Below are positions 12,862 through 32,766 of a stretch of 64,000 bases of DNA, piece by piece (position 1 is the stretch's first letter; the number at the start of each line of letters is the position of its first letter). Origin of the DNA: Gluconobacter sp. Dm-62 (GTDB lineage Bacteria; Pseudomonadota; Alphaproteobacteria; Acetobacterales; Acetobacteraceae); assembly GCF_018256155.1 (NCBI RefSeq), contig NZ_JAERLY010000006.1, positions 1 through 64,000 of the forward strand, given 5' to 3'. Position numbers and translations under genes: made by a program. The notes below the pieces were generated by a model that did not search any database, had not been told where the DNA came from, and saw only the letters and a program-made list of their open reading frames with translations.

Positions 12862-14232
12862 TTGATGTCAGACGACTCTTCGTCTTCTCAGGCTGCAAGA
12901 CCCGGCGGTGTCCAGCGCGTCATGAGCAATCTGGGTGTCCTTCTGGGAGGACGCGCAGTCAACGCGCCGTTAAGCCTCATTCATATCTGGCTGGCGACCC
13001 ATCTGCTGGGAAGCTACAGTTTCGGCCTCGTTGCAATGATGTATGCCTTTGCGCGAACGATGGGCGATATCGTTGACTTCCAGTCCTGGCAGACGGTGCT
13101 GCATTATGGTCTGAAGCCACTGACGCAAGGTGATCGTCGCAGTTTCCAGAAAATCGTTTCCTTCAGTCTTCTGCTGGACAGTCTTGGCGGCCTGCTGGGC
13201 TTTGGCGGCGGTATCCTCATCAGTCTCCTGGCCATGAATTTTCTAGGCTGGCCACCTCAGATCCATATCACTGGCGTCGTTTACTGCGTCTCCATCCTCT
13301 TCATGGCTTCTGCCACGGCAACTGGCCTTCTGCGGGTTTTCGACCGGTATGATCTGCTGGCCGTACAGGGCACCGTCGCGACTATCGTCCGTGTGATCGG
13401 CACGGCCTCAATGGCTCTGGGCTGGGCGTCGGTGACGGCGCTTGCGAGCGTCTGGATCGCCGCGGAAGCCGCTGCATGGAGCACCATCTTCTTCATGGCG
13501 GCCCGTGAAATGTACCGCCGCGATCTGATCCGCGGCCTGTTTCACGAGATGCGCGGCATTCTGCCCGAAATCCTGAGTGGGCAGTTTTTCCGCACCTATC
13601 CGGGGATCTGGCGTTTCGCGCTGAACACAAACCTCAATTCCACCCTCGCCCTCGCGTTCGGTCATATTGGAACACTCGTGGTTGGCGCCTTTGTCGGCCC
13701 GACGAGTGCTGGCTATTACCGGATTGCAAGTCAGATCGCGGCGGGGATCGCCAAGCCCGCCACCCTGATCCAGACAACCGTCTATCCCGAAATGGCCCGG
13801 CTGTGGCGTGACCGGGCCATGAACCGCCTGTATCGCATGACGGGACAAATCGCTCTGATGGCGGGCGGCATTGGCACGGCCCTGCTTCTGCTGACCCTGT
13901 TCGCAGGACGCCCTCTCCTGCAACTCTACATTGGCCATAAAGGGGCGACTGAGGCCCTGCCGGTCACGCTGTGGCTGCTTGCCGCAGAAGTGGTCACCGT
14001 CTGGGGGCTCCCCCTTGAGCCACTGCTGTTCACCACGAACCGCTCGGGTGCAGCAATCGGGGCCCGCATCCTCGAGTGTCTGTTTTTTCTCCCGGTCCTT
14101 GTGATGATGGTTCGCCAGTACGGGCTGAGCGGCGTCGGACCGGCCACATTGTGTGGCGTCACACTGCTGATCACGATCCAGCTTGTTTTTGTCGTCCGTG
14201 CCGCCCGCAGCCCTACGGGAATTCCGGCATGA
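12862..14232 (+). CDS. Polysaccharide/lipid flippase of the MOP (Wzx-like) superfamily
   Basis: A 456-residue inner-membrane protein with about 12 hydrophobic helices, matching Wzx/MurJ-type flippases that turn lipid-linked saccharides across the membrane. After a Ser-rich 20-residue cytoplasmic start, the first helices read GRAVNAPLSLIHIWLATHLLG and SYSFGLVAMMYAFARTMGDI. It opens a five-gene block that continues with a glycerophosphotransferase-like gene (ATGA overlap), an acyl-AMP ligase, an acyl carrier protein and serine palmitoyltransferase. That context suggests it handles a decorated lipid, possibly a glycosylated ceramide. This role is an inference. Confidence 0.8.
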   Translation: MMSDDSSSSQAARPGGVQRVMSNLGVLLGGRAVNAPLSLIHIWLATHLLGSYSFGLVAMMYAFARTMGDIVDFQSWQTVLHYGLKPLTQGDRRSFQKIVSFSLLLDSLGGLLGFGGGILISLLAMNFLGWPPQIHITGVVYCVSILFMASATATGLLRVFDRYDLLAVQGTVATIVRVIGTASMALGWASVTALASVWIAAEAAAWSTIFFMAAREMYRRDLIRGLFHEMRGILPEILSGQFFRTYPGIWRFALNTNLNSTLALAFGHIGTLVVGAFVGPTSAGYYRIASQIAAGIAKPATLIQTTVYPEMARLWRDRAMNRLYRMTGQIALMAGGIGTALLLLTLFAGRPLLQLYIGHKGATEALPVTLWLLAAEVVTVWGLPLEPLLFTTNRSGAAIGARILECLFFLPVLVMMVRQYGLSGVGPATLCGVTLLITIQLVFVVRAARSPTGIPA

Positions 14233-15359
14233 AAGTGGCCTTTCCCCTTATCGGGCAGCGTCACCAGACCCTGCATGCCCTGCCAATCGCGCTGGAAATC
14301 TCCGCACGTCACCCCGACGTCGCGGTCCACGTGTCCTGCCTGACCGTAAGCCATCTCGAACTGGCCCGTTCGCTGGCGACACTCTATCCCGAAGCCCGGG
14401 TACAATTTGATCTGCTACCCATTTCTCCGAAGCTCCGCCGTCGGATCGAACAGCATGGCCTGCGGGTCGTGGACCGCTTGATCGGACTTTTCGCCTCCCG
14501 GCACTATTTCCGGACCTTTGATGCGATCATCGTGCCGGAAGCGACGTCGTTGCAACTTCGTCGTGTGGGGGTGCGCCGCCCGAAAATGATCTGGACCGGG
14601 CATGGCGCCGGGGACCGGGCGATCGGATTTGCCAAACATCTCGGAAAATTCGACTTCCTGCTGGTCCCCGGACGCAAGGTGGAACAGCGCATGCTGGAAA
14701 AAGGCATCATCCGCCCCGGCGCCTATCATCGCGGGACCTATGCCAAGTTTGATCTCGTGCGGCGCATGGATGCGAAACGACCCAAGCTCTTCAACAACAG
14801 CCGGCCGACGATCCTGTATAATCCGCACTTCCTGCGCCGCCTGTCATCATGGCCGGAAATGGGGCAGCAGATCCTGAAGTTTTTTGCCGACCAGGATCGC
14901 TACAACCTTGTTTTCGCGCCTCATTTCCGACTCTTCGACAATCACCGCGAGGAGGGGGAAGCCCTGAAACGACAGTATGGGCACCTTCCGCACATGCTGA
15001 TTGACCCGGGCAGCCACCGCAGCATCGACATGACCTACACGATGGGCGCAGACCTCTATCTGGGCGATGTCAGCAGTCAGGTGGCCGAATTCATGATCCG
15101 CCCGCGCCCTTGTCTCTTCCTCAACGCCCACCATGTGAAATGGCATGGCAATCCGGATTACCAGTTCTGGAACCTGGGGCCGGTGACGGAAAACGTGTCG
15201 GATCTGGGCCGCAAGATCGAGAATGCCTTCGAAACGCATCCTCGTTTTCTTGAGGCGCAGCGCCAATATGTATTAGAGACATTCGAAACACTGGGTGATG
15301 AGCCCACCGCACCCGCTGCTGCGGATGCAATTGTCGATTTTCTGAAAAGGGCTGCCTGA
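14229..15359 (+). CDS. CDP-glycerol:glycerophosphotransferase-like protein
   Basis: The 376-residue product starts at an ATG that overlaps the flippase stop (ATGA). It has a GT-B-like layout: an N-terminal Rossmann half (MKVAFPLIGQRHQTLHAL) and a C-terminal half with GADLYLGDVSSQVAEFMI followed by RPCLFLNAH. That is the pattern of TagB/TagF-type CDP-glycerol transferases, where a Ser-Ser motif and a downstream Pro are conserved. It may add a phosphoglycerol-type group to a lipid or glycan. The family is assigned by motif only. The next gene begins at its stop codon (TGATG), so the genes are translated together. Confidence 0.65.
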   Translation: MKVAFPLIGQRHQTLHALPIALEISARHPDVAVHVSCLTVSHLELARSLATLYPEARVQFDLLPISPKLRRRIEQHGLRVVDRLIGLFASRHYFRTFDAIIVPEATSLQLRRVGVRRPKMIWTGHGAGDRAIGFAKHLGKFDFLLVPGRKVEQRMLEKGIIRPGAYHRGTYAKFDLVRRMDAKRPKLFNNSRPTILYNPHFLRRLSSWPEMGQQILKFFADQDRYNLVFAPHFRLFDNHREEGEALKRQYGHLPHMLIDPGSHRSIDMTYTMGADLYLGDVSSQVAEFMIRPRPCLFLNAHHVKWHGNPDYQFWNLGPVTENVSDLGRKIENAFETHPRFLEAQRQYVLETFETLGDEPTAPAAADAIVDFLKRAA

Positions 15360-17170
15360 TGTCAGGCGATCCAAACGGAGCTAGTCCAGGTTTGACCGAG
15401 GCCAACCAGAACCCAACCGCCAATCCCGTTCCGACGCCAAGCCGTTCCGGCTTGGAAAGACGTTACGGTGATTTCCCCAGCTTTGCAGCCGCACTTGATT
15501 ACGCGGCTCAGGGTGAGAGCGGATTCAACATCTATTCCGGCCGGGGGCAGCTTCTTGAAGCGCTGCCTTACCGTCTGCTGCGCGAGCAGGCCCGCTCCAT
15601 GGCCTGCCGTCTGCTGGGCCTTGGTCTCGTTCCTGGTGACCGTGTTGCGATCGTTGCGGAAAGCGATGGCGATTTTGCGCGGATTTTCTTTGGCTGCCAG
15701 TATGCCGGCCTCGTTCCCGCGCCTCTGCCCCTTCCCGTCGCGTTCGGCGGAAAAGAAGGCTATGTGGGAACCCTGCGCGGCATGATCCAGGTCGCCTCAG
15801 CCCGTGCCGTTGTCGTGCCGGACGTGATCGGAAGCTGGACCGGAGATATCGTTGACGGTCTCGATCTGGTCTTCGGCGGCTCACCCGCAGATCTGTATCG
15901 CCATGCCGAAGCCCGGATCGAACTTCCGGAAATTTCTTCGACCGCCCTGTCCTATCTCCAGTTTTCTTCGGGCAGCACGCGCTTTCCGATGGGTGTTTCG
16001 GTCACACAGGCGGCGGGGATGGCCAATGCCCGCGCTATCGCCCGGGACGGCCTTCACGTTCATCCTGCGGAAGATCCTCGTGATGACCGCTGCGTCTCGT
16101 GGCTGCCGCTGTATCACGACATGGGTCTCGTCGGCTTCTTCCTGACGCCCCTGACCTGCCAGCTGTCTGTTGACCTGCTGCCGACCCGCGAGTTCGCGCG
16201 CCGCCCGCATGTCTGGCTGGACCTGATCTCCCGCAACCGCGGCACGATCGCCTACAGCCCGTCCTTCGGTTACGAGCTCTGCTCGCGCCGGAGCGGTCAG
16301 GCCGATCTGGACCTGTCGTGCTGGCGCATTGCTGGCATCGGTGGCGACATGATCCGCCATCACATCCTTGAAGGTTTCGCCGAGCGTTTCGCCTCCAACG
16401 GTTTCCGGGCCAGCGCCTTCGTTGCAAGCTACGGCATGGCTGAGGCGACCCTCGCCATCAGCTTTGCTCCGCTCGACACCGGCATACAGACCGACACGAT
16501 CGATCTGCGTCGCCTTGAGAAGGATGGCATTGCCGAGCCCTCCAACGACCCGTCACTTCCGCTGCGAACCTTCGTCCTGTGCGGTGAAGCCCTCCCCGAC
16601 CATCAGATCGAGGTTCGCGACGCAGCAGGCCGTGACCTGGCGGACCGCCAAGTGGGCACCGTCTATGTACGGGGGCCGAGTCTCATGTGTGGCTATTTCC
16701 GCCGTCCCGATGAGACGGAGGCCGTCCTGGATGCAGATGGCTGGCTGAACACCGGTGACCTTGGCTATCACCTTAACGGCCAGATCGTCGTCACCGGACG
16801 CGCCAAGGATCTCATCATCATCAACGGCCGTAACATCTGGCCGCAAGATCTGGAATGGTCCGCCGAAAGCGAGATCTCGACGCTGCGTTCACGTGACGTT
16901 GCCGTGTTCTCCATCGATGCTGAAGAAGGTGAAAAGATCGTAGCCCTCGTCCAGTGTCGCGCGACTGAGGATGCAAGCCGTAACCAGCTTCGCGATGAGG
17001 TTACGAGTCTGTTCCGCCGCCAGCATGGCGTAGATGTCGACGTCATTCTTGTGCCGCCCCGTATGCTGCCCCAGACATCCTCGGGAAAGCTGACCCGCGC
17101 GAAGGCCAAGACCATGCTGCTCTCCGGCCAGTTCGATCAGCAACCCGAAACCACGTCTTCGGTCGCCTGA
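15359..17170 (+). CDS. Fatty acyl-AMP ligase / acyl-ACP synthetase of the sphingolipid locus
   Basis: A 603-residue ANL-superfamily enzyme that activates a fatty acid as acyl-AMP, probably to load the carrier protein encoded next. Motifs seen are the phosphate loop SSGSTRFP (residues 203-210), LPLYHDMGLVGFFL, YGMAEATLAIS, the NTGDLGYHLNGQIVVTGR segment and a C-terminal SSGKLTRAKA lysine motif. This is the FAAL-like type found beside serine palmitoyltransferase in Caulobacter and related bacteria. It overlaps the upstream gene by one base. The first 30 residues are Pro/Asn-rich and probably disordered. Confidence 0.85.
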   Translation: MSGDPNGASPGLTEANQNPTANPVPTPSRSGLERRYGDFPSFAAALDYAAQGESGFNIYSGRGQLLEALPYRLLREQARSMACRLLGLGLVPGDRVAIVAESDGDFARIFFGCQYAGLVPAPLPLPVAFGGKEGYVGTLRGMIQVASARAVVVPDVIGSWTGDIVDGLDLVFGGSPADLYRHAEARIELPEISSTALSYLQFSSGSTRFPMGVSVTQAAGMANARAIARDGLHVHPAEDPRDDRCVSWLPLYHDMGLVGFFLTPLTCQLSVDLLPTREFARRPHVWLDLISRNRGTIAYSPSFGYELCSRRSGQADLDLSCWRIAGIGGDMIRHHILEGFAERFASNGFRASAFVASYGMAEATLAISFAPLDTGIQTDTIDLRRLEKDGIAEPSNDPSLPLRTFVLCGEALPDHQIEVRDAAGRDLADRQVGTVYVRGPSLMCGYFRRPDETEAVLDADGWLNTGDLGYHLNGQIVVTGRAKDLIIINGRNIWPQDLEWSAESEISTLRSRDVAVFSIDAEEGEKIVALVQCRATEDASRNQLRDEVTSLFRRQHGVDVDVILVPPRMLPQTSSGKLTRAKAKTMLLSGQFDQQPETTSSVA

Positions 17171-17176
17171 TACTCT

Positions 17177-17233
17177 ACCGGCTCCTGCTCCCCGAACGCC
17201 TGAAAAGGCAAAGGGGTGGCGAACGGGGCCGGT
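17177..17233 (+). promoter_or_regulatory. Structured leader between the acyl-AMP ligase and acyl carrier protein genes
   Basis: ACCGGC (17177-17182) pairs with GCCGGT (17228-17233). Inside it CCCC can pair with GGGG, and GCCT-GAAA-AGGC (17198-17209) forms a perfect small hairpin. There is no T tract. The 114-base gap is the only sizeable one in this five-gene block. A processing site or partial stop that sets carrier-protein levels is possible but unproven. Confidence 0.4.
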
Positions 17234-17284
17234 TTGGAGCATAAGGCTTGCCCAAGATTGCACAGACACCGAGAGTTGAAGTCC

Positions 17285-17539
17285 ATGACTGACAGCGTCG
17301 CCGGCATTTCCGGAATGATCATTGAGAAACTGCTTGCCAATCCGAAAGTTCCCCGGGACATCGATGGCAACAGCAAGATTGTCGAAGACCTTGCCTTTGA
17401 CAGCCTGGCCGTCATGAACTTCGTCATGGAAATCGAAGACGAGCTGGACGTTTCGGTACCGCTGGACAAGCTTGCGGACATCCGGACCATCAACGATCTT
17501 GCCGGTTGCCTGCACACGCTGAAGGTTGCCCACGCGTGA
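17285..17539 (+). CDS. Acyl carrier protein of the sphingolipid locus
   Basis: An 84-residue carrier protein, distinct from the housekeeping AcpP at 32420. The phosphopantetheine site is FDSLAVMNF with Ser40, in place of the usual ADSLD context. GAGAG upstream of the ATG at 17285 and the start of helix 1 here decide the start; an in-frame ATG at 17216 would add 23 basic residues. It probably carries the acyl chain from the ligase to serine palmitoyltransferase, the next gene, whose GTG start overlaps its stop (GTGA). Confidence 0.9.
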   Translation: MTDSVAGISGMIIEKLLANPKVPRDIDGNSKIVEDLAFDSLAVMNFVMEIEDELDVSVPLDKLADIRTINDLAGCLHTLKVAHA

Positions 17540-18729
17540 CTGATATCTTCGCCAAGCATCAAGGGCTGCGCGAAGCCTATGACGGCCTGACGGCCGCGTC
17601 ACCACGGAACCCGTTTGAGGTCGTGATCGAACGTCCGATTTCCGCCAGTGTGGGAATTATCGAGGGCCGCGAGACGCTGCTGTTCGGGACCAACAACTAT
17701 CTTGGTCTCAGCCAGTCGAAAAAGGCCATCAAGGCGGCTGTGGAAACGGCCGAGACGATGGGTGTGGGCACAACAGGTTCGCGCATTGCAAACGGCACTT
17801 TCGGCCTGCACCGCAAGCTTGAAGCCCAGCTCGCCGAATTCTTCCGTCGCAAGCACTGCATGGTATTTTCCACCGGATATCAGGCCAATCTGGGCACGAT
17901 TTCGGCTCTGGTGAACAAGGACGACGTCCTGCTACTCGATGCGGACAGCCATGCCAGCATCTATGATGGTGCCAAGCTTTCGGGCGCGCAGGTCATCCGC
18001 TTCCGTCACAACGATCCGGTCGATCTTGAAAAGCGTCTGGCACGCCTGAAGGACCACACGGGCGCCAAGCTCATCATCGCCGAGGGCATTTACTCCATGA
18101 CGGGCAATGTTGCCCCGCTGGACAAGTTCGTCGATATCAAGACACGCCACGGCGCGTATCTGATGGCTGACGAAGCGCATTCGTTCGGCGTTCTGGGTGC
18201 ACATGGCCGTGGCGTTGCCGAAATGCAGGGCTGTGAAGACGGGATCGACTTCGTGGTCGGCACCTTCTCCAAGTCCCTCGGGACCGTCGGCGGCTACTGC
18301 GTCACGAACCATGACGGCGTGGACCTGATGCGTCTGTGCTCACGTCCCTACATGTTCACGGCGTCTCTGCCCCCCGAAATCATTGCAGCCACCATGGCCG
18401 CGCTTGAAGACATGCAGGCCCGTCCCGAACTGCGGACGAAGCTTCAGGAGAATGCAGCACGTCTGCATTCCGGACTTCAGAAGGCTGGCCTGAAAACGGG
18501 CGAGCACGTCTCCCCGGTCGTTGCCGTAACGCTGGAGACCGTGGATCAGGCCGTGGGCTTCTGGAACGCGCTGCTGGAAAACGGGGTCTATGTGAACCTG
18601 TCACTCCCGCCAGCCACGCCAGACAACCGGCCGCTGCTGCGCTGCTCGGTCATGGCAGCCCATTCCCCCGAGGAAATCGACCGCGCCGTGGCCGTCTTCG
18701 CCGAAGTCGCCCGGCACTTCGGCCTTTAA
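17536..18729 (+). CDS. spt: Serine palmitoyltransferase
   Basis: A PLP-dependent alpha-oxoamine synthase that condenses L-serine with a fatty acyl thioester to give 3-ketosphinganine, the first step of sphingolipid synthesis. The 397-residue product has GTNNYLGLS, the FSTGYQANLG segment typical of bacterial Spt, DEAHSFGVLG (residues 212-221) and the PLP lysine in GTFSKSLGT (K246). Related enzymes (BioF, Kbl, HemA) share this fold. The neighbouring acyl ligase and carrier protein favour Spt. I chose the GTG start at 17536 because it overlaps the carrier-protein stop. It ends at a strong terminator. Confidence 0.9.
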   Translation: MTDIFAKHQGLREAYDGLTAASPRNPFEVVIERPISASVGIIEGRETLLFGTNNYLGLSQSKKAIKAAVETAETMGVGTTGSRIANGTFGLHRKLEAQLAEFFRRKHCMVFSTGYQANLGTISALVNKDDVLLLDADSHASIYDGAKLSGAQVIRFRHNDPVDLEKRLARLKDHTGAKLIIAEGIYSMTGNVAPLDKFVDIKTRHGAYLMADEAHSFGVLGAHGRGVAEMQGCEDGIDFVVGTFSKSLGTVGGYCVTNHDGVDLMRLCSRPYMFTASLPPEIIAATMAALEDMQARPELRTKLQENAARLHSGLQKAGLKTGEHVSPVVAVTLETVDQAVGFWNALLENGVYVNLSLPPATPDNRPLLRCSVMAAHSPEEIDRAVAVFAEVARHFGL

Positions 18730-18734
18730 TCCAT

Positions 18735-18767
18735 AAAAATGGGGGATCCACCGGATCCCCCATTTTT
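18735..18767. terminator. Bidirectional rho-independent terminator
   Basis: AAAAATGGGGGATCC (18735-18749) and GGATCCCCCATTTTT (18753-18767) form a perfect 15-bp stem with a 3-base loop and T runs on both strands. It lies between spt (plus) and the Tam41-like gene (minus), which ends at 18770. Confidence 0.95.
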
Positions 18768-18769
18768 AT

Positions 18770-19708
18770 TCAGACTGTCGGACGCTTCAGAAGCCTCCGG
18801 GCCCGCCACAGAAGCAATGGCAGCATCACAAGCGGATGCCGGCTCTCAAAGGGCGACAGCTCCATATCAAAACCCGTATGGCGCTGGATCTTCCAGGCAA
18901 GATAGGACGCGCCGTTTTCAAACGTGAAAGCGGCTTTCAGCAGTCTGGCTACATTACGCGGGCGGCCGGACGTCTGAATCAGCGCCCAGCGACGGGCCGC
19001 TCTCTGACGGAGGCCAGTGTCAATGACGGGTTCGAGCCGATCCCCGTGAGCCGAAAACTGAAGATGCCCCCGCGCCCATCCGAGAGGCAGCAAAGCGGCG
19101 TAACGGACCTCCTGCCCTTCCAGAATACTGTTACCCCGGCCTTTTTTCTCAACCCGAAGTTCTGAAGCGTAGGTATGAGCAAAAAGGGTCTGCCAGAAGC
19201 CCAGCGCCGTCATGGACGCCTCGCCCAGAAGAGCCGCCCAGCACGACGCCGTCGTCACGCAACCCGCAATCAGCGACAGGATGGCATCCGCACTTTCCGG
19301 ATCACGCACCCAGACCAGCCGTACCGGCTGGCAGAACCGCGCCCAGATTGTCGTATCCAGTGCGGCGAGACCGGTTCGGGCCTCGAATTGCGAGCGTGAT
19401 AGAACCGCGATTTTCGCTCTCAGAACACGGCCGCCATGATGGAACTCGGAATAGCGGACATTGGGCGGCAGAACGAGGTTGCCGGTTCGGGCAACCAGAC
19501 CGCCTGAAAAACCTTCGGCGTCTTCGGTGACGATATAGAAGTCGAGAATACCGTCCGGGTCAGCTTTTCGAAGCAGCGATCCGTAAAACAGCACGCCGAG
19601 CGGAAGAACGGGACACGCATGCGCCAGCGCATCGGCAAAGGCGACCACACCGGGATCAACCGGGGTCGTCAATTCGCCAATCAGGCGCTGCTCGAGCGCA
19701 TCAGGCAT
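18770..19708 (-). CDS. Tam41-like nucleotidyltransferase (candidate lipid-phosphate cytidylyltransferase)
   Basis: I read this 312-residue protein as similar to Tam41/Mmp37, the mitochondrial CDP-diacylglycerol synthase. The shared order of motifs is LFYGSLLRKADPDGILDFYIV (YGS at 42-44, LDF at 55-57), then LPPNVRYSEFHHGGR, RAKIAVLS, and a Trp-x-x-Phe-Cys-Gln-Pro-Val motif near 122-128. This matches the family's YGS...DF, LPP-V-Y, KYGV and GR-KPV pattern. The ATG at 19708 overlaps the upstream lipid-kinase gene by 8 bases, so the two are co-translated. A kinase followed by a cytidylyltransferase suggests ceramide to ceramide-1-phosphate to CDP-ceramide. The substrate is an inference; a plain nucleotidyltransferase is the alternative. 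Confidence 0.62.
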   Translation of the reverse strand: MPDALEQRLIGELTTPVDPGVVAFADALAHACPVLPLGVLFYGSLLRKADPDGILDFYIVTEDAEGFSGGLVARTGNLVLPPNVRYSEFHHGGRVLRAKIAVLSRSQFEARTGLAALDTTIWARFCQPVRLVWVRDPESADAILSLIAGCVTTASCWAALLGEASMTALGFWQTLFAHTYASELRVEKKGRGNSILEGQEVRYAALLPLGWARGHLQFSAHGDRLEPVIDTGLRQRAARRWALIQTSGRPRNVARLLKAAFTFENGASYLAWKIQRHTGFDMELSPFESRHPLVMLPLLLWRARRLLKRPTV

Positions 19709-20648
19709 GCAGGAACCGGAAACCGGGCGCACGTTCCAGATGCAGAACACCATCAGGCGCAGCTGTGAAGACTTCACCATCCAGCACGAAATCGCTCTCT
19801 GTCACCAGCGTCATGTCATCCGTGCGACCGCTGACATAGTCCGGATGACGGCGCAGCCATCGGGGGGCACGGCCGAACAGCAGCGCTGCCGTGGCCCGCA
19901 GGAGGCTGTCAGGGCGGGCGTTCACATCCAGATAGCGAAGGCCTTCGACATTGGGCTCAGCATCCCAGAACGGCCAGATCCCACGGGACAGGCAGGACAG
20001 GCCGGTGACGAGGAACATGAAGCTCTGTCCATCATAGGCATGGCCACCCGTCTCGATCCGCAGAGGATCCCCCTTGAGCCACGCTTCACGGCTCCGGCGG
20101 AACATAAGACTGACAAACGTGGTGAGCAGGGTAATACCGACAGCCAGATCATGCGGGGCAAAGCGCAGAACCGTAGGAGAATGGGCAATCCGCACGGCCC
20201 GCGCGAAGCCTGCACACCCGCCGAAAAGCCCCAGTACCGGCATACGATCTGTTCCAGGCCAGGACAGGCGGATCGGTGTGCGAATGCTGGAACGCAACGC
20301 GCCCTTGCGCAGACGATGGATCGCATCCATACCCCGCAGCCCGAAACCTACGTCACTCGCAATCAGGTTCGTATTCCCTGATGCCAGAACCACGATATCG
20401 GGAAGCTTATCAGCAGGGTAAGCCCGCGCAATAGCGGTCAGGGCAGTGCTGACCGTCCCGTCTCCCCCGTCGATGAGGATGGTATCAACACCACGCTCGT
20501 ACAGCTGACGGACATGGTCAGTGGTCCCTTCCCGGCTATCGGAAGGAACAAAATCCTTCCCCAGAAGGGCCTCGGCCTCGACAGCAAAACTGGAACCGTT
20601 CCGGCGGTTTTTCCGGCTACGGGCATTATGGATCAAGGCTATGCGCAC
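19701..20648 (-). CDS. Diacylglycerol/sphingoid lipid kinase (ceramide-kinase candidate)
   Basis: A 315-residue DAGK-family protein with the nucleotide-binding motif ILIDGGDGTVSTAL (GGDGT at residues 61-65), preceded by the usual N-terminal IHNARSRKN segment. Family members phosphorylate diacylglycerol, sphingosine or ceramide. In Caulobacter the comparable kinase CpgB phosphorylates ceramide. I chose the GTG at 20648 because the domain begins there. The frame stays open to an ATG at 20915, but that would overlap the divergent phosphoesterase gene by about 130 bases and has no family similarity. It overlaps the Tam41-like gene. Confidence 0.78.
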   Translation of the reverse strand: MRIALIHNARSRKNRRNGSSFAVEAEALLGKDFVPSDSREGTTDHVRQLYERGVDTILIDGGDGTVSTALTAIARAYPADKLPDIVVLASGNTNLIASDVGFGLRGMDAIHRLRKGALRSSIRTPIRLSWPGTDRMPVLGLFGGCAGFARAVRIAHSPTVLRFAPHDLAVGITLLTTFVSLMFRRSREAWLKGDPLRIETGGHAYDGQSFMFLVTGLSCLSRGIWPFWDAEPNVEGLRYLDVNARPDSLLRATAALLFGRAPRWLRRHPDYVSGRTDDMTLVTESDFVLDGEVFTAAPDGVLHLERAPGFRFLHA

Positions 20649-20786
20649 TAGGGAGGCAATCTTCGTATGGCGTTCGGCTATGCGGGCGGGTCTAGCACGG
20701 CTATGATGGAACTGCCAGAACAAGGCATCCCGGTGCGACCGGAAGCCGGTTCCTGGCGTGGATACTGACAAGGCCCTTTTCTGATC

Positions 20787-21722
20787 ATGACCCCTGACCT
20801 GCCCGCAGATCCCATCTCGTCGCGGCAAATGTCCCCTGTCCCCACGCCCGCTGTCACACCGACTGTCACACTGGCTCATATTTCGGACCCGCATCTCCCT
20901 CCTCCTCCGGTTCACTGGCGTGAGGCGCTCAACAAGCGGGCGTTAAGTCTCCTGTCATGGAAAAAGCACCGCCAGTACGTTCACCTCGCGCAGACCTGTG
21001 CGGCGCTAGTAAAGGATATCGGGAGATCGGACGTAGACACGATCCTGGTCAGCGGAGATCTGACCAATTTCGGAACGCCCGGCGAATTCGCCGAAGCCGC
21101 AAGCTGGCTCGAATCCTTGCCTGCCCCCGCACTCGTCATCCCCGGCAATCATGACTGCATGGTCCGCCAGCCGGCCTCCGCCGGTTTACAGCAGTGGGAG
21201 CGCTGGTCCGACCGGCAGTATCCGTATGTCCGCATCCAGAATGGCATTGCGATCGTCGGCGTCAATTCGGGCATTGCGACAGCCCCGTTCATGGCCTGCG
21301 GACGCGTCGGGCACAGACAGCGCGAGCGACTGGAAGCCCTCCTGGAACAGCTGGGTCGGGAAGGCCTGTGTCGGGTCGTGATGATCCACCATCCGCCGAA
21401 ACGTGGCCTCGTCCCCTGGCGCAAGTCCCTGCTTGATCATCGTGAGGTCGCGGGCGTCTTCAGGCGCGCAGGGGCAGAAATCGTCCTTCACGGTCACTCC
21501 CATGACGCGACCCTGACCCATATTGCCGGAACCGACATTCCGCTGCTTGGTGTGGCGTCTGCATCTCTGACGGATGACCGTCCGCATCGGCAGGCCTGCT
21601 GGAATCATCTGAGCATCCACCCATATGAGAAGGGCTGGAAAATCGATCTGGCACGTCACCGGCTCGATGGCTCGGTCAGTGAGCGGGCGTCGTGGAAGCG
21701 TTCAGGAAGGACAGTTGCGTGA
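20787..21722 (+). CDS. Calcineurin-like metallophosphoesterase
   Basis: The 311-residue product has all the dimetal phosphoesterase motifs: DPH (residues 34-36), GDLTNFG (90-96), GNHD (120-123), a HH pair in MIHHPPKRG, and LHGHSHD near residue 235. It is the first gene of a six-gene plus-strand block and its stop overlaps the GTG of the LptF-like gene. A lipid-head-group phosphatase role fits the locus, for example removing phosphate from a ceramide intermediate, but nothing in the sequence fixes the substrate. The ATG at 20829 is a possible shorter start. Confidence 0.85.
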   Translation: MTPDLPADPISSRQMSPVPTPAVTPTVTLAHISDPHLPPPPVHWREALNKRALSLLSWKKHRQYVHLAQTCAALVKDIGRSDVDTILVSGDLTNFGTPGEFAEAASWLESLPAPALVIPGNHDCMVRQPASAGLQQWERWSDRQYPYVRIQNGIAIVGVNSGIATAPFMACGRVGHRQRERLEALLEQLGREGLCRVVMIHHPPKRGLVPWRKSLLDHREVAGVFRRAGAEIVLHGHSHDATLTHIAGTDIPLLGVASASLTDDRPHRQACWNHLSIHPYEKGWKIDLARHRLDGSVSERASWKRSGRTVA

Positions 21723-22873
21723 AACAGCGGGCCCATATTCTGGACCGGTATCTGCTGACACAGATGGCGCCTCCATTTGCGATCGCGCTGCTGGCGATGC
21801 TGGTTGCCCTGCTGCTCGAACGCCTGCTGTCTCTTTTTGACTATCTGGCCTCTGCAGGCAGTTCGCTTGCTACCTGCATCACCCTCCTGACCGATCTTCT
21901 GCCCCATTATTTTGGCATTGCCCTGCCAGCGGCTCTCTGTATCGCGGTGTTTCTCACCATTCGCGGCATGAGCGACAATAACGAGATCGATGCGCTTCAG
22001 GCCGGACGGGTTTCGCTCATGCGGATCAGCCGTCCGTTCATGATCGTGGGGCTTCTTCTGGGCGCCGCAAGCGTGTTTCTGTATGGTTATATTCAGCCCG
22101 TGGCCCGATATGATTACCGCGCCGGGTTCTATTTTGCGGAGCATACCGGCTGGGCCCCGCATCTTCAGGCAGGAATGTTTGCCTCCACATCCAGCAAAGC
22201 CGTTATGACTGCCGACAGCGTCAGCCATTCCGGCACCCGCCTGAGACGCGTTTTCATCCGCGAGGTGAATGCCAATGGTGTGGCTCATATCATCACGGCC
22301 AGAACCGGCGCACTGACCATTTCGGAAAAAACCCGCAGTACACGCCTGGATCTGTGGAACGGCGAAATCGTGGACGATCCGTTTCAGGCGGCCAAACCTC
22401 ACAAGCCAACTGTGACCCATTTCGAACATGTCGTCCGTGTCATCGACCGGCCAAACAAGGAAACGACCTTCCGTTCCCGCGGGGCGGACGAGCGCGAACT
22501 GACGCTGTTCGAACTGGCACATGATCTGCGGTATGGGTTGCCCGGCATTGAATACCGCACACTTCGTGCCGAAATGGATTTCCGTATGGCCCGCGCCATC
22601 GCCATCCCCTTCATTCCGCCGCTGGCGGTCGCACTGGCCATCAGCGCCCGACGCAGAAAATCCGTCTGGGGCCTGATCGCCGTAGCCGTGATCCTGATCG
22701 GCTTTGACCAGACAATCATGTTCGGACACAGCCTGGCCTCGACCGGGCGCCTGCCGATCTGGCTGGCGATCTGGGTGCCGGAAGCCGTGTTCTGTATAGG
22801 GTGTCTGGCTGCCCTGCTCCGTCGATCCCGCGGGTCCTGGCGTCGCCGCAAGCTGACACGGGCTTCTGCATGA
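21719..22873 (+). CDS. LptF/LptG-family permease, first paralogue
   Basis: A 384-residue member of the YjgP/YjgQ (LptF/LptG) family: three N-terminal helices, a periplasmic beta-jellyroll-like middle and three C-terminal helices. Family features include an N-terminal LDRYLLTQMAPPF start and the coupling-region DNNEIDALQAGRVSLMRI. Canonical LptFG extract lipopolysaccharide with the LptB ATPase. Here the pair sits in a sphingolipid locus without lptA, lptB, lptC or lptD, suggesting a different lipid cargo. The GTG at 21719 overlaps the upstream stop (GTGA) and begins the family domain. Confidence 0.82.
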   Translation: MKQRAHILDRYLLTQMAPPFAIALLAMLVALLLERLLSLFDYLASAGSSLATCITLLTDLLPHYFGIALPAALCIAVFLTIRGMSDNNEIDALQAGRVSLMRISRPFMIVGLLLGAASVFLYGYIQPVARYDYRAGFYFAEHTGWAPHLQAGMFASTSSKAVMTADSVSHSGTRLRRVFIREVNANGVAHIITARTGALTISEKTRSTRLDLWNGEIVDDPFQAAKPHKPTVTHFEHVVRVIDRPNKETTFRSRGADERELTLFELAHDLRYGLPGIEYRTLRAEMDFRMARAIAIPFIPPLAVALAISARRRKSVWGLIAVAVILIGFDQTIMFGHSLASTGRLPIWLAIWVPEAVFCIGCLAALLRRSRGSWRRRKLTRASA

Positions 22874-23979
22874 CCGACTCTGCCCATCACATGCCGCGCT
22901 TCGTACTGATCAGGGCGCTCAACCGTGCCCTTCTGGGACGGTTCATGCTCTGCGGCGCCGTGCTCGTCTCCCTGCTGGAAATCCTGGCGCTTCTGGAAAA
23001 AACGACTCCAATCCTGAACCGCCATCTTGGCGTGCGCGGGATCCTGACATTCGCGTTTCTGCACCTGCCTGCCCTGAGCATCGATATCCTGCCGCTGGCT
23101 TTCATGGTGGGTGCTCTGTTTCTCCTCACACAGATGACGCTATCGAGCGAAATCTCGGCGCTGAGGGCTGCCGGGCTTTCAACGCCGGCACTCTATCGCC
23201 TTCTCCTTCCAGCCGTACTGATTGCCGGCATCGGCGGAACCTGCGCGCAGTACTGGCTTGTCCCGACCTGTGAGAACGCTCTCACGACATGGTGGAACCG
23301 GACGGATCCGCTGGCCGGACAGGAAGGACAGCCCGAGGACGATATCCTCTGGTTTCGAGCAGGTCCGACGCTGGTACGGATCGGACAGATCGCCCAGGGC
23401 GGCTCTTTTCTGCGGGACGTAACAATCTATCACCGGGATGGCACGGGCCTGTTGACCGGGACCGAACATACGAATGTCCTGATCTACAAGGACGGCCAGT
23501 GGCATCCTGATGGCGCGCAGGACCTTTCCCTTTCAGACGACAAATCGTTCGTCAATGTCACAAAGGGTGACAACACTTTCATCATCCCTGCCACGCCGTC
23601 AGCCATCATGACGCTCTCGCAAAACGGTGCATTTGTGACACCGGGTCAGATCAGCGCCATTCTTCACAAGGGCGCACCAGCAAGTCTACCAAGGGCAACA
23701 TATCGTATGGCCCTCTTCGGAGGCATGATTTTACCCATTGAAATTGCAGTAATGCTTCTATTGACGCTCCCGGTGATCTATATCCCACCCCGTGCGGGAC
23801 TTCGAAATCCGCTTCCGGTGTATGTGCTTGGCGCCGGAATGGGCTTCGTCATCCTGCAGGGAATGATTTCCGCACTTGGAAACGCGGGCACACTACCAGC
23901 ACCACTTGCTGTCAGTGTCGGGCCGTTGCTGGGCGCCCTTCTGGGGCTGACCTGGCTTTTGCGGATGGAGGAACGATGA
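22870..23979 (+). CDS. LptF/LptG-family permease, second paralogue
   Basis: The 369-residue partner of the preceding permease, with the same three-helix, periplasmic domain, three-helix plan. The coupling helix reads SSEISALRAAGLSTPALYRLLL and the first helix region FMLCGAVLVSLLEILALLEKT. The ATG at 22870 overlaps the previous stop (ATGA), and its own stop overlaps the hydroxylase start. Together the two genes encode a full LptFG-like heterodimer. A sphingolipid exporter that borrows a general LptB-type ATPase is my inference. Confidence 0.82.
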   Translation: MTDSAHHMPRFVLIRALNRALLGRFMLCGAVLVSLLEILALLEKTTPILNRHLGVRGILTFAFLHLPALSIDILPLAFMVGALFLLTQMTLSSEISALRAAGLSTPALYRLLLPAVLIAGIGGTCAQYWLVPTCENALTTWWNRTDPLAGQEGQPEDDILWFRAGPTLVRIGQIAQGGSFLRDVTIYHRDGTGLLTGTEHTNVLIYKDGQWHPDGAQDLSLSDDKSFVNVTKGDNTFIIPATPSAIMTLSQNGAFVTPGQISAILHKGAPASLPRATYRMALFGGMILPIEIAVMLLLTLPVIYIPPRAGLRNPLPVYVLGAGMGFVILQGMISALGNAGTLPAPLAVSVGPLLGALLGLTWLLRMEER

Positions 23980-24791
23980 GCAATTTCAACGCACCGTGGC
24001 GCAACATGTCCGCCATCCGGACAGGTCGCAGCTTCGATCTGGGAAAGATGAACCTCTCGCAATTGTGGTTCGCTTACCTCACCTACCCGACAATCCTGCT
24101 CTATTTCGCGCTGATCGCAGGGGCCGCCTGGGCGGCCCTGCATTTTTCGACTGCCCTGTGGACGACGCTCATTCCCGTTCCCGTCGTGATCGTGGTCTAT
24201 CCGCTGGCCTGGTATGCGATTCACCGCTTTATCCTTCACGGGCGCTGGCTGTACCGCAATCACTGGACGGCCTCGCTGTGGAAGCGCATCCATTTCGACC
24301 ATCATCAGGACCCGCATCTTCTGGACGTGCTGTTCGGCTCTCCGCTGAACACGGTGCCGACCATGGCCATCATCACGATGCCGATCGGTGGTCTGATCGC
24401 GGGCTGGAGTGGAGCGTTCTGCGCCCTTTCAACCGCGCTGATCATGACCTGCATTTACGAGTTCTTCCACTGCATCCAGCACCTGGCCTACAAGCCGCGC
24501 TGGAAATGGGTCGCGGACATCAAGCAGCTGCACGTCCTGCATCATTTCCACGACGAAGACGGCAATTACGGCATCACGAACTACGTGCCGGACCGTCTGT
24601 TCAGCAGCTTCTACCGCGAAGCCCGCGACCGACCCCGCAGCAAGCATGTGTTCAACCTCGGCTACGACATCGAGGAAGCGCACCGCTATCCGTGGGTCAT
24701 GGACCTGACGGGGACGCCCCCGAAGGACCGTCCCGACGGTGCCCGCCCGGCATCATCCCGCACGGCCCCCGACCGTAACCGCGCGGCATGA
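23976..24791 (+). CDS. Fatty acid hydroxylase / sterol desaturase superfamily protein
   Basis: A 271-residue integral-membrane diiron enzyme with the full set of histidine boxes: HRFILHG (83-89), HFDHHQDPH (106-114), HCIQH and HVLHHFHDEDGNYG. Several hydrophobic stretches lie between boxes. The family hydroxylates acyl chains or sphingoid bases. In this block it most likely adds a hydroxyl to the ceramide (2-hydroxy fatty acid or C4 of sphinganine). Acetic acid bacteria are known to make hydroxylated ceramides. The start overlaps the LptG-like stop. Confidence 0.85.
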   Translation: MSNFNAPWRNMSAIRTGRSFDLGKMNLSQLWFAYLTYPTILLYFALIAGAAWAALHFSTALWTTLIPVPVVIVVYPLAWYAIHRFILHGRWLYRNHWTASLWKRIHFDHHQDPHLLDVLFGSPLNTVPTMAIITMPIGGLIAGWSGAFCALSTALIMTCIYEFFHCIQHLAYKPRWKWVADIKQLHVLHHFHDEDGNYGITNYVPDRLFSSFYREARDRPRSKHVFNLGYDIEEAHRYPWVMDLTGTPPKDRPDGARPASSRTAPDRNRAA

Positions 24792-25543
24792 GCCTTCCGG
24801 TTCTGGTGCTCGCCGGCTCCCGGGACGGCGAGAATGACGTACTCGCAAAACTCGGGCAGGTCTCCCACAAGGCGCTTCTTCCCGTTGGCGGTCAGCCCAT
24901 GCTGGCCCGCGTGCTCGACACCATCGCCCACACGCCCGGCCTTGGCCCTGTCACAATCAGCATCGAAAACCCGGACTGCATAAGGGATCTGGCAGGCAAT
25001 GCCACGATCCTGCGCTCCGCGCCGTCCCCCAGCGAAAGCGTTGCCCAAGCCATCGCGTCCATCGGCACGCCCTGTCTGGTGACGACAGCCGATCATGCGC
25101 TCCTGCGGCCGGAATGGATTCAGGAGTTCCTCGCTAAGGCACAGGGCTGCGATCTTGCGGCCGGTGTGGCACTCCGCACGACGGTTGAGCGCGACGTGCC
25201 CGGCACGAAACGCACCTATATCCGCCTGTCGGACATGAGTTTTTCAGGCTGCAATCTGTTCCTGATTGGCACGCCAAAGGGGCGGAACGTCATCGAACTA
25301 TGGAAGCGCCTTCAGCAGAACCGCAAGCGCCCGCTCCGGATGGCGCTGACGCTGGGTCTTGGCACGTTGCTGCGCGCCGTGACGCGCACACTGGACTCCA
25401 CAGCCCTGTGCCGCCGCATCCAGACCCTCACCGGCGCCAGCGTCCGTCTGGTGACGCTGTCAGACGGCCGCGCGGCGGTCGATGTGGACAAGCCGTCCGA
25501 CCTGACGCTGGCTGAACAGATTCTGGCCCAGACGACCCCATGA
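24788..25543 (+). CDS. MobA/NTP-transferase-like nucleotidyltransferase
   Basis: A 251-residue GT-A nucleotidyltransferase fold. The N-terminus LVLAGSRDGENDVLAK and SHKALLPVGGQPML match the sugar-nucleotide/MobA signature (GGxxxR replaced by GSRDGEN), and TTADHALL supplies an Asp in the metal region. The C-terminus has VDVDKPSDLTLAEQIL, typical of the family. It may make an activated head-group donor for the neighbouring glycosyltransferase or phosphotransfer step. The start overlaps the hydroxylase stop and its own stop overlaps the GT4 start. Substrate is unknown. Confidence 0.72.
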   Translation: MSLPVLVLAGSRDGENDVLAKLGQVSHKALLPVGGQPMLARVLDTIAHTPGLGPVTISIENPDCIRDLAGNATILRSAPSPSESVAQAIASIGTPCLVTTADHALLRPEWIQEFLAKAQGCDLAAGVALRTTVERDVPGTKRTYIRLSDMSFSGCNLFLIGTPKGRNVIELWKRLQQNRKRPLRMALTLGLGTLLRAVTRTLDSTALCRRIQTLTGASVRLVTLSDGRAAVDVDKPSDLTLAEQILAQTTP

Positions 25544-26610
25544 AAATCGCCTACATCATCAATTCGCTCGAGTGTGGCGGCGCGCAGCTTCCCATTCCGG
25601 ATATTGTATCCGTTCTGAAGGCCCGCGGCGGGGACGTGACCGTCTTCGCACTGGCCCGCAAGGACGGCCTGGCCATCCCGCTGGTCGAGGCCGCAGGCAT
25701 TCCCGTCCGCGTCCGTGAAGGCACAACGCGCGACCATATCGCAGCCTATCGCTGGCTGCGCGACGAGATGGAAGCCTTCCAGCCCGACCTGATCTGGACG
25801 TCCCTGAGCCGTGCAACACTTCTGGGACAACTCGTCGCCCTGCGCCACAAAACACCAACAGTCCACTGGCAGCATTGCGGACGCCTGAAGAAAGCCAATG
25901 CGTTCCTCCTCAGGCTGTGCCGCCCCTACACCACGCTCTGGGTCGCCGACTCCCAGTCCGTCATCACCTTCGCCGCCAAAGAACTCGGCCTCAGCGACAA
26001 TTTTGTAGCCTGGCCCATTTTCCGCGCCGATCCCAATGCGCCGCTGGCAACGCCCTGGCAGAACGGCGAAGTCGTGCGCGTCGGTTCACTGGGACGGCTG
26101 AATCCGGTCAAGGCTTACGATATCCTCTGCGAGGCCGTGGCCCTGCTGAAGGACCATCCCGACCTGCCACCGTTCCGTCTTCAAATTGCAGGCGATGGCC
26201 CCCTGCATGCCGCGCTTCTGGCCCGCATCGCAGACAAAAATCTGCCGATCGATCTTCCGGGCTATACGTCAAAACCCATGGATTTCCTGAAAACCCTACA
26301 CCTTTACGTCCAGTCGTCGCATTGGGAGGGCATGTGTGTTGCCGGGCACGAAGCCATGACCTGCGCCCTCCCGGTTGTCGCAACCCCCGCTGGGGAGCTG
26401 CCATCCAGCATTCTCGACGGCGAGACGGGGCGCATCGTGCCGTTCGACAACGCCCCTGCCCTAGCAGCAGCTCTGGCGGACCTGATTGGCAGACCGGCCG
26501 ACCTTGCGGCAATGGGCGAACGCTCCCGCGAGCGGGTTCTGGAGCGCTTCGGCCCGGAAGCCTTCACCCGCAACGGCAACGCCGTACTGGACCGTATTCC
26601 GGGCTTCTGA
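25540..26610 (+). CDS. GT4-family glycosyltransferase
   Basis: A 356-residue GT-B glycosyltransferase. The N-terminal half begins MKIAYIINSLECGGAQ, the acceptor-side glycine loop of GT4 enzymes. The C-terminal donor half has VGSLGRLNPVKAYDILCEAV, and the conserved GHEAMTCALPVVAT segment with the usual catalytic Glu in the EAM position. It is the last gene of the plus-strand block (ATGA overlap upstream) and probably transfers a sugar to the sphingolipid or its phosphate head group. A hairpin terminator overlaps its stop codon. Confidence 0.85.
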   Translation: MKIAYIINSLECGGAQLPIPDIVSVLKARGGDVTVFALARKDGLAIPLVEAAGIPVRVREGTTRDHIAAYRWLRDEMEAFQPDLIWTSLSRATLLGQLVALRHKTPTVHWQHCGRLKKANAFLLRLCRPYTTLWVADSQSVITFAAKELGLSDNFVAWPIFRADPNAPLATPWQNGEVVRVGSLGRLNPVKAYDILCEAVALLKDHPDLPPFRLQIAGDGPLHAALLARIADKNLPIDLPGYTSKPMDFLKTLHLYVQSSHWEGMCVAGHEAMTCALPVVATPAGELPSSILDGETGRIVPFDNAPALAAALADLIGRPADLAAMGERSRERVLERFGPEAFTRNGNAVLDRIPGF

Positions 26611-26622
26611 ACGCCCGGAATA
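26595..26622. terminator. Hairpin at the end of the GT4 gene
   Basis: TATTCCGGGC (26595-26604) and GCCCGGAATA (26613-26622) form a perfect 10-bp stem around an 8-base loop that contains the GT4 stop codon. No T tract follows on the plus strand. It can serve the convergent gene at 26631 as well. Confidence 0.6.
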
Positions 26623-26630
26623 CACGTCCT

Positions 26631-27521
26631 TCAGGCACCGAAGATCCGGCGCTTCATGTTCAGCAGATCCCGCTTCGGCCCGATCCCGATTTTCTTGACG
26701 TCGATCAGCGTCACCTGCCCGGCTGCGGAGAGCGTGTGCATGCCGTCCGGAAAGCGCCGGCGCAGGGTGGCCGGAATGGAAACCGTCAGCCCGGGCGTGA
26801 CTTTCGGCAGTTCACGCTCCAGCCCCTCAATCTCCAGAAGCCGAATGCCGCGCCCATAAGTGCCCTGGCAGTCCTGAGTCGGCAGGATGATCTTTCCATC
26901 CACGACAACCGGCGTGCCCCCGGGGCGCGCACCTGCACGGTCATTCAGGAAAAGCCCGAGATTCTTCCAAGGCCCCGTCAGCGTGTCCGCCACGGAAATA
27001 TTCAGCAGGCTCTGGCGCTCGGCCTTGCTGCCTGCAGGCGTCCAGAACATCCACCAGCGACCGGCATAATGAAGAGGGGTCGCATCGATTGCCGCTTCGG
27101 GGAAATCAAAAGCCTCGACCCGCTCCCACTCATGCGGAAATGACCTCGCACGGTAGAGCGAAAGACGCCCCGACGCACTTGCCTCGGGCAGCATATAAAC
27201 CGCACCCTCATGCTCGAACACGAACGGGTAGGACAGGTGCCAGGGCTCTTGCAGAACGGTTTCGCGCGACAGCATCCGCCCCGTACCGTCATAGATCAGG
27301 ACCTCGATCGTCCCTTTCGGGCTGCGGTAGTCGAAGGCCTCGGCAAAGACATACAGCTTCCCGTCACGCCAGACTCCGAACGGGTCCGCCAGAAAACGAT
27401 GGTCTCCGATATCGGGCAGCGTCGTGATGGGAAAACCGTTCAGACTGGCCGCCTCGACAACCTCCGCCAGAGGCGCGTGAACGATGGCGCAGCGCCAGTG
27501 ATCAGTTCGCAAAAATGGCAA
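26631..27521 (-). CDS. Beta-propeller protein related to the N-terminal domain of glucosamine inositolphosphorylceramide transferase
   Basis: A 296-residue protein with a five-bladed beta-propeller look: repeated FLADPFGVWRDGKLYVFAEAF, SYPFVFEHEGAVYMLPEAS and WWMFWTPAG-type strands, like GH32/GH43 folds. This pattern matches the N-terminal domain found in plant GINT1-type sphingolipid glycosyltransferases and in some bacterial proteins beside formyltransferases. It has no signal peptide, so it is probably cytoplasmic. Its place at the end of a sphingolipid locus supports a head-group role, as sugar transferase or sugar binder. Catalytic residues cannot be assigned from sequence alone. Confidence 0.65.
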   Translation of the reverse strand: MPFLRTDHWRCAIVHAPLAEVVEAASLNGFPITTLPDIGDHRFLADPFGVWRDGKLYVFAEAFDYRSPKGTIEVLIYDGTGRMLSRETVLQEPWHLSYPFVFEHEGAVYMLPEASASGRLSLYRARSFPHEWERVEAFDFPEAAIDATPLHYAGRWWMFWTPAGSKAERQSLLNISVADTLTGPWKNLGLFLNDRAGARPGGTPVVVDGKIILPTQDCQGTYGRGIRLLEIEGLERELPKVTPGLTVSIPATLRRRFPDGMHTLSAAGQVTLIDVKKIGIGPKRDLLNMKRRIFGA

Positions 27522-27602
27522 GGGGTAGTCTCCCGCAAAAATACCGCTTCAAAAAAACCTGTCGGGGCAGACGTAGAGCGCAGATCGGGGCAGGATGGAA
27601 CC

Positions 27603-28142
27603 ATGAGTGAGGCTCTTTCCGCAATTTCCGCAGACATCTCCTGCGGCCTACCTGAAACGCAACTGGCCATCCGCCGCGCCGTTCTCGGACTCTGCCGGAC
27701 AATGAACTGGGCGGCCATCAATGAATTTTCCCTCCCCGCCGCAGGGCGCAGGGCGGACATTATGGCGCTGCTGCCCGATCATTCCCTGACCTGTATCGAG
27801 ATCAAATCCGGCCTGCGCGATTTTCAGACCGATCAGAAATGGCCCGAATACCGCGACTGGTCCGACCGGCTGTTTTTCGCGGTGGATGACGGTTTTCCCG
27901 CAGACCTCATCCCGCCGGATGTGGGGCTGATCGTCGTCAGCGTGAGCGCCGTTCCCCCTGCCCTGCGGGACAGCGTTCTGGCAGAATGCACGATCATCCG
28001 GGAGCCAACGCTCCACAGGCTCGCTCCCGCCCGCAGGCGCACCCTGATGCATCTGTTTGCGACCACAGCCGCCAGCCGGCTCATGAGCCTTGAAGACCCC
28101 GCCATCACGGCGTCCCTCCGCGCCGCACGGCGCACAGACTAG
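27603..28142 (+). CDS. mmcB: MmcB-family DNA repair protein (putative endonuclease)
   Basis: A 179-residue alphaproteobacterial protein of the MmcB/DUF2-type restriction-endonuclease-like fold. The PD-(D/E)xK pattern is visible as ADIMALL...CIEIKSGLRDF, followed by KWPEYRDWSDRLFFAV. In Caulobacter MmcB is an SOS-induced partner in DNA damage repair; that link is family knowledge. I chose the ATG at 27603 because the family begins with the helix SEALSAISADISCGLPETQ. A longer frame upstream overlaps the divergent propeller gene. The phosphatase gene follows after 9 bases. Confidence 0.85.
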   Translation: MSEALSAISADISCGLPETQLAIRRAVLGLCRTMNWAAINEFSLPAAGRRADIMALLPDHSLTCIEIKSGLRDFQTDQKWPEYRDWSDRLFFAVDDGFPADLIPPDVGLIVVSVSAVPPALRDSVLAECTIIREPTLHRLAPARRRTLMHLFATTAASRLMSLEDPAITASLRAARRTD

Positions 28143-28151
28143 GACTGTTCC

Positions 28152-28940: not shown

Positions 28941-29028
28941 CATCCCCCTCGCCCCGCACTCGTGATTTGGCCGCATTTGGCGCATAGTGCGGGAAACATC
29001 TTTTCGATGACAGCAGAAGGTATCCTCC

Positions 29029-32296: not shown

Positions 32297-32391
32297 CGAT
32301 GCCTCTTGTCTCACGTTATGTCCGGGTCTTGCAGTCGGGCCTCATGAAAAGCCCGACTGTTCTTCCGCCTTGTCTGGCAAGACGGGCATCC

Positions 32392-32411
32392 GGAGCCGGA
32401 AAACCGGCTCC
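32392..32411 (-). terminator. Hairpin between acpP and fabF, likely partial stop
   Basis: GGAGCCGG-AAAA-CCGGCTCC is a perfect 8-bp stem with a tetraloop, just past the acpP stop. A second weaker GCCCG/CGGGC pair lies nearby. There is no long T run, so it may only reduce reading into fabF, which fits the known need for more ACP than FabF. Confidence 0.55.
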
Positions 32412-32419
32412 AGTCAGCC

Positions 32420-32659: not shown

Positions 32660-32745
32660 CTGTCTGTTCCTTATGCCCATCCGGGACCCTGTTGCCCGTC
32701 CGGTGCGTTACATCAAAACTCGTACTGCCGTCTGCCAGTCCGGAA

Positions 32746-32766
32746 GCCCGGAGATCCCTCCCGGGC
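32746..32766 (-). terminator. Hairpin in the fabG-acpP gap
   Basis: GCCCGG (32746-32751) and CCGGGC (32761-32766) form a short perfect stem with a 9-base loop, downstream of fabG and upstream of acpP on the minus strand. There is no T tract. It may fold in the acpP leader. Little else is visible in this 222-base gap. Confidence 0.35.

Follow-up and report, generated by a model that had tools for sequence, protein, structure and literature searches.

The closest described counterpart of the genes analysed here is the sphingolipid locus CC_1168–CC_1152 of Caulobacter crescentus (PMC11324152, PMC12275187). The step from ceramide phosphoglycerate (CPG) to CPG2 in Caulobacter involves CC_1153 and CC_1158 (PMC11324152). 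The reduction of 3-ketosphinganine in bacteria, and its position in the order of reactions, are disputed; the Caulobacter reductase CerR is periplasmic, and there is no free NADH in that compartment (PMC11087976). Here, we describe a related locus at positions 12865–27521 of the first 64,000 nucleotides of contig NZ_JAERLY010000006.1 of Gluconobacter sp. Dm-62. The whole 64,000-nucleotide stretch is referred to as the window (C49:1–64000 of genome G000, which comprises 3.46 Mb in 52 contigs).

A Caulobacter-type locus with an incomplete pathway

The genes form a conserved phosphosphingolipid locus, a variant of the Caulobacter type, but the locus on its own does not hold a complete path. The Caulobacter records used for comparison were located through the cpgD primer printed in PMC12275187 (18 matches), and the cluster was taken from the genome of C. 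vibrioides DSM 9893. Its genes were matched to CC_1168–CC_1152 by order, with the exceptions of the TagF-like gene, placed as CC_1167, and the phosphoesterase, placed as CC_1158. The first part of the cluster encodes LptC2 (named by position), the TagF-like protein, a flippase, AasR, CerR, AcpR, and Spt. CpgC, CpgB, and CpgA follow on the opposite strand, and the last part consists of the phosphoesterase, HIT, LptF2, LptG2, CerS, and the MobA-like protein, with CpgD convergent to them.

Eleven proteins of the C. vibrioides locus, CpgB and CpgC among them, have homologues in the window (blastp), which bears out the proposal of a first-pass annotation that this is a locus for sphingolipid synthesis, head-group formation, and export comparable to that of Caulobacter. 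LptC2, CerR, CerS, CpgA, CpgD, and HIT have no blastp match at E 1e-3 in the window and the next 20 kb. The same annotation saw a complete path in the locus, which the searches do not support: CerR, CerS, CpgA, and CpgD are missing from the locus, and a CerS homologue is on another contig. Its analogy to CpgABC stands for CpgB (32% identical) and CpgC (41%) and fails for CpgA, which has no match in the genome; CpgD is matched there only with E 2.9e-4 over about half of the query.

The fourteen genes, listed from reading frames and profile scans with start codons checked, are as follows (percentages are identities to the C. vibrioides or named CC proteins):

12865–14232, plus strand: MOP-type lipid flippase, CC_1166 homologue (PF01943, E 8.4e-11; 36%)
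14229–15359, plus strand: homologue of CC_1167, a candidate TagF-like transferase for phospho-alcohols (PF04464 at E 0.018, under the cut-off; 39%)
15359–17170, plus strand: AasR, acyl-acyl carrier protein (ACP) synthetase of the fatty acyl-AMP ligase type (PRK09192, 901 bits, cut-off 600; 54%)
17285–17539, plus strand: AcpR, specialised ACP (ACP models, E to 4e-11, below NCBIfam cut-offs; 46% over 57 aa)
17536–18729, plus strand: Spt, serine palmitoyltransferase (NF047599, 618.8 bits, cut-off 500; 55%)
18770–19708, minus strand: CpgC, Tam41-like nucleotidyltransferase (41% to CC_1161; family alignment A1 with invariant YGS...D; PF09139 in 2 of 25 relatives)
19701–20648, minus strand: CpgB, ceramide kinase, GTG start (DAGK_cat, E 2e-10; 32% to CC_1160)
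20787–21722, plus strand: metallophosphoesterase, CC_1158 homologue (PF00149, E 1e-15; 41%)
21719–22873, plus strand: LptF2, lipid export permease (PF03739, E 7e-51; 36%)
22870–23979, plus strand: LptG2, lipid export permease (PF03739, E 7.4e-64; 30%)
23976–24791, plus strand: FA_hydroxylase, probable ceramide hydroxylase (PF04116, E 1.1e-17)
24788–25543, plus strand: MobA-like nucleotidyltransferase, CC_1153 homologue (PF12804, E 9.9e-13; 40% to CC_1153)
25540–26610, plus strand: GT4 glycosyltransferase, variable accessory gene (PF00534, E 6.7e-26)
26631–27521, minus strand: stand-alone GINT1_N-like propeller, variable accessory gene (PF24793, E 1.8e-35)

Each kind of gene that had been named for 12862–27521 was recovered by the profile scans, and the TagF-like gene is an addition to that earlier list. 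The overlaps of 1–8 bases reported for most genes were likewise found, at nine of the 13 junctions (1, 4, or 8 bases; eight of them by 1 or 4). The 8-base overlap is that between the kinase and Tam41-like genes, which start with GTG at 20648 and ATG at 19708, respectively. The gaps at the non-overlapping junctions are 114, 40, 138, and 20 bases long. AcpR displays a DSL motif; its model scores are below cut-off. Spt scores 456 bits with the AlphaP model NF047603, under its cut-off of 670, and the sole PDB match of the hydroxylase is a weak one to the yeast ceramide hydroxylase Scs7 (E 0.056).

A divergent SDR–CerS pair outside the locus

CerS was matched in all 12 genomes that were searched, nine of the host family (f1) together with G036, G295, and G313 (C. 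vibrioides). CerS of G000 (C22:261832–262971) is 34% identical to that of C. vibrioides, and a short-chain dehydrogenase/reductase (SDR) gene is positioned beside it on the opposite strand (C22:260853–261656). The same arrangement was present in all six family loci read initially. Among 120 family genomes, 49 have a CerS match; the divergent SDR adjoins CerS in each of the best 30 of these 49 loci, which represent 25 genera, and in four more genomes of the host genus (G005, G006, G009, and G016). No divergent SDR was found at CerS in the three outgroup loci (G313, G295, and G036), the spt loci of which hold CerR.

CpgC is encoded in 31 of the 120 family genomes, and all 31 carry CerS (Fisher p 2.3e-16, uncorrected for relatedness; the CerS and CpgC draws of 120 genomes were taken as one set, and unlisted rows were not compared). 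CerS is SDR-linked in 28 of these 31. In G472, G479, and G510, CerS is inside the cluster, and the stretches retrieved contain no SDR of this kind; G479 also has CerR. Locus L231 of G361 itself includes the SDR and CerS genes, next to a gene for a diverged Spt-like protein, and CerR was not seen in its 20 kb. Locus L231 also contains two TagF-like genes and a GINT gene.

In a tree of 12 CerS sequences (midpoint root, four forks open), the SDR-linked proteins from G000, G280, G050, and G361 are split from the in-cluster ones with support of 100/100. The in-cluster side includes the three from the same family (G472, G479, and G510). Because the SDR-linked clade splits from in-cluster CerS, including those of the same family, the pair is read as a replacement of the backbone module rather than its relocation. 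Of 36 SDR rows, duplicates among them, 31 match both strict SDR motifs. A search limited to the open literature gave no description of an SDR next to cerS in these bacteria.

Conservation of the gene neighbourhood

The grouping is more than chance, as this set of genes is met again in neighbourhoods of 20 kb throughout the class; CpgC was found in 34 of 289 class genomes. Companions of CpgC were counted in 28 stretches anchored on it, each no longer than 20 kb, of which three come from the host family; some stretches are cut by contig ends, so that the counts are lower bounds. CpgB is present in at least 24 of the 28, LptF in at least 22, Spt in at least 21, and AcpR, LptG, and the hydroxylase in at least 20 each. 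The MobA-like protein, AasR, and CerS accompany CpgC in at least 19 each, the phosphoesterase and CerR in at least 17 each, and CpgA in at least 11. Rarer companions are HIT (at least 6), the flippase and GINT (at least 3 each), and the TagF-like protein and CpgD (at least 2 each). GT4 is near CpgC in at least two stretches, in one of them within a locus with generic GT4 genes.

These counts suggest that CC_1153, CC_1158, the hydroxylase, and LptFG2 are general partners of CpgB/CpgC and that CpgA and CpgD are optional. They also suggest that CC_1167, which was called probably unrelated to the pathway (PMC11324152), belongs to it.

CpgC is encoded in all 26 genomes of the host genus. The first-pass annotation named homologues scattered away from spt in relatives as a finding that would count against it, and this applies in part: CpgC is beside spt in 21 of the 25 genus genomes in which the places of both are known (G412, the 26th, was left out) and elsewhere in G001, G009, G012, and G022. 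The Spt match in G012 (C1:1602012–1603189; L028, L083) is in two adjacent pieces and looks like a frameshift or sequencing error. A second spt-like gene was observed in Caulobacter sp. 602-1 (G314:C241:27192–28367, locus L136); its product is 53% identical to Spt of the window.

CpgC and the head group

CpgC of the window has no Pfam match. An alignment of 25 CpgC sequences contains an invariant Y-G-S and D, and PF09139 (Tam41_Mmp37) matches two of the 25 relatives at E up to 10, one of which, from L059, is above the cut-off (29.3 bits versus 24). A profile of the 25 relatives identified one nucleotidyltransferase chain (E 0.0086). Neither the Tam41-like nor the TagF-like protein had a usable match in sequence searches of the PDB, and a single-sequence AlphaFold2 prediction of the CpgC-like protein had a mean predicted local distance difference test (pLDDT) score of 39.5. 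CpgC is probably a cytidine triphosphate (CTP):ceramide-1-phosphate cytidylyltransferase. CpgC as a ceramide activator is not claimed as new, since nucleotide (nucleoside diphosphate, NDP)-activated ceramide from CC_1161 has already been suggested (PMC11324152). The term CDP-ceramide (CDP, cytidine diphosphate) was not found in the open literature searched.

Among the 12 genomes, strong matches to the CPG2-specific CpgA and CpgD are restricted to the controls G295 and G313. CpgA is without a match in G000, and in five further genomes of the family its matches are short and weak. CpgD is matched over part of its length in G036 (E 3.1e-10) and marginally in four family genomes besides G000, and it has no match in the remaining four family genomes searched. 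Because CpgA was not found and the CpgD match is only marginal, the product should probably not be CPG2. The MobA-like protein was considered as CpgD and rejected, as it matches CC_1153 and has no blastp match with CpgD, a different protein. No head-group structure of lipids from acetic acid bacteria was found in the open literature listings searched.

Accessory genes and neighbours

GT64 is the catalytic domain of the GINT1 glycosyltransferase, which has an N-terminal propeller. The GINT-like protein resembles plant GINT1 in its N-terminal domain only; it contains the propeller without GT64. Because the likeness covers the propeller domain alone, the GINT name does not imply inositol. Its PDB matches are weak, the best being arabinanases (E 6e-4). 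GINT-like proteins were found in 22 of 385 class genomes. GT64 was matched in none of the eight relatives scanned, of which two have the size of the propeller and six are longer open frames without a Pfam match in the remaining part. Bacterial GINT1_N proteins in L183, L185, L188, L191, L193, and L196 are open frames of 486–650 aa with an N-terminal part without a Pfam match. In the host family, GINT is present without GT4 in L065, L067, L243, L244, and L231, whereas L235 and L242 have GT4 without GINT. L239 has neither gene, and further loci, L085 and L091 among them, have both.

The conserved edge of the locus is formed by MmcB-like, IMPase-superfamily, and Ysc84 genes (window 27600–29907), which remain adjacent where GINT is missing from a locus. 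About 3.5 kb past the locus, at 31010–34636 of the window, is a cluster for fatty acid synthesis (FabF, FabG-like, and FabD-like).

Proposed pathway and alternatives

We consider it somewhat more probable than not that the locus is a Caulobacter-type variant in which the backbone module has been replaced, CpgB/CpgC provide phosphorylation with probable CTP activation, and the head group is not CPG2. By orthology, AasR would load a fatty acid onto AcpR, Spt would condense the AcpR-borne acyl group with serine to 3-oxosphinganine, and CpgB would phosphorylate ceramide. The flippase and LptF2/LptG2 would, by the same argument, carry the lipid towards the outer membrane, a role that is itself only proposed in Caulobacter. 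The backbone may be finished by the unlinked divergent pair on C22, in which the SDR would take over from CerR as a ketosphinganine reductase, located in the cytoplasm, and would work with the separate-clade CerS. Ceramide would be hydroxylated by the PF04116 protein, and CpgC would use CTP to activate ceramide-1-phosphate. A phospho-alcohol head group may be assembled or trimmed by the MobA-like enzyme, the TagF-like transferase, and the phosphoesterase, with a sugar added by GT4. A more specific form is advanced tentatively: the CerS and periplasmic CerR of the family were replaced by the separate-clade CerS and a cytoplasmic SDR ketosphinganine reductase, which restored NAD(P)H-fed reduction, and ceramide then undergoes phosphorylation and activation to CDP-ceramide before it receives a non-CPG2 head group that varies between lineages by gain or loss of GT4 and the propeller.

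Several observations weigh against this pathway. The SDR is of a generic kind: its best NCBIfam match reaches 150.8 bits where the cut-off is 266, and the 25 NCBIfam matches listed for it include no model for a ketosphinganine reductase. The 19 weaker CerS matches were left out when the loci were read. G422 and G513 have the SDR–CerS pair without a CpgC match (the 120 family genomes were searched for CerS and CpgC). In G361, identity to Spt falls to 33%, and the 20 kb of its locus showed neither AasR nor AcpR. Furthermore, no transferase for CDP-ceramide was identified, and this pathway does not account for the retention of CC_1153 and CC_1158 homologues without CpgA and CpgD.

An epimerase-type CerR may still perform the reduction if the protein encoded on contig C44 of G000 is CerR in diverged form and the SDR next to CerS serves a different function, which we regard as unlikely. 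The CerR query (a 269-aa part of the protein) matches 8 of the 12 genomes, with the C44 protein as the best match in G000 (E 5.8e-19). However, the C44 protein reaches only 85 bits with CerR, against 236 bits with a paralogue from Caulobacter, because of which it was taken as the counterpart of that paralogue. Four of the nine family genomes have no match to the partial query, and the SDR–CerS adjacency is kept in 25 genera. GOX1849 (epi) is given as the G. oxydans counterpart of CerR (PMC9386255), an assignment that would differ from our reading of the C44 match if the two are the same gene.

It is similarly improbable that the locus makes CPG or CPG2, with the TagF-like and MobA-like enzymes as unrecognised stand-ins for CpgA and CpgD. 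The homologues of CpgB, CpgC, CC_1153, CC_1158, and CC_1167 are all retained, and TagF-type enzymes take CDP-linked donors, although the PF04464 match here is below cut-off. Against this stand the distributions of CpgA and CpgD described above and the presence of both stand-in candidates in C. vibrioides alongside CpgA and CpgD. An inositol-phosphate-based glycolipid, after the GINT name, is very unlikely as the head group. Although the GINT1_N domain is matched (E 1.8e-35) and an IMPase-superfamily gene is at 28152–28940, the propeller is present alone, GT64 is in none of the eight relatives, and some family loci have no GINT. The IMPase-like protein matches best as a histidinol-phosphatase, below cut-off, and its gene stays with MmcB and Ysc84 in loci without GINT (L235, L239, and L242); it was rejected as a member of the locus.

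The most useful new lead is the SDR–CerS pair: the presence of an SDR beside a distinct CerS, with no detectable CerR, in one bacterial group makes the question of 3-ketosphinganine reduction testable.

Comparison with known systems

The locus in the window and CC_1168–CC_1152 of C. crescentus (PMC11324152, PMC12275187) have in common aasR, acpR, spt, cpgB, cpgC, lptF2, and lptG2 as well as homologues of CC_1158, CC_1153, CC_1166, and CC_1167. In contrast to the Caulobacter locus, the window and the following 20 kb are without homologues of CerR, CerS, CpgA, CpgD, HIT, and LptC2, whereas the PF04116 hydroxylase, GT4, and GINT-like genes are additional. The Tam41 family of mitochondrial CDP-diacylglycerol synthases (PF09139) resembles the CpgC family in the nucleotidyltransferase-type YGS...D, and one CpgC relative exceeds its cut-off; the CpgC of the window differs in having no Pfam match and in its expected substrate, ceramide-1-phosphate. 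The SDR may be likened, by description and not by sequence, to BT_0972 of Bacteroides, a bacterial reductase proposed for 3-ketosphinganine (PMC11087976). As in the window, aasR, acpR, and spt of G. oxydans 621H are consecutive (GOX2058–2056), without cerR between them, and cerS (aca, GOX2417) is unlinked (PMC9386255). The section of that article on G. oxydans describes neither the head-group block nor an SDR beside cerS.

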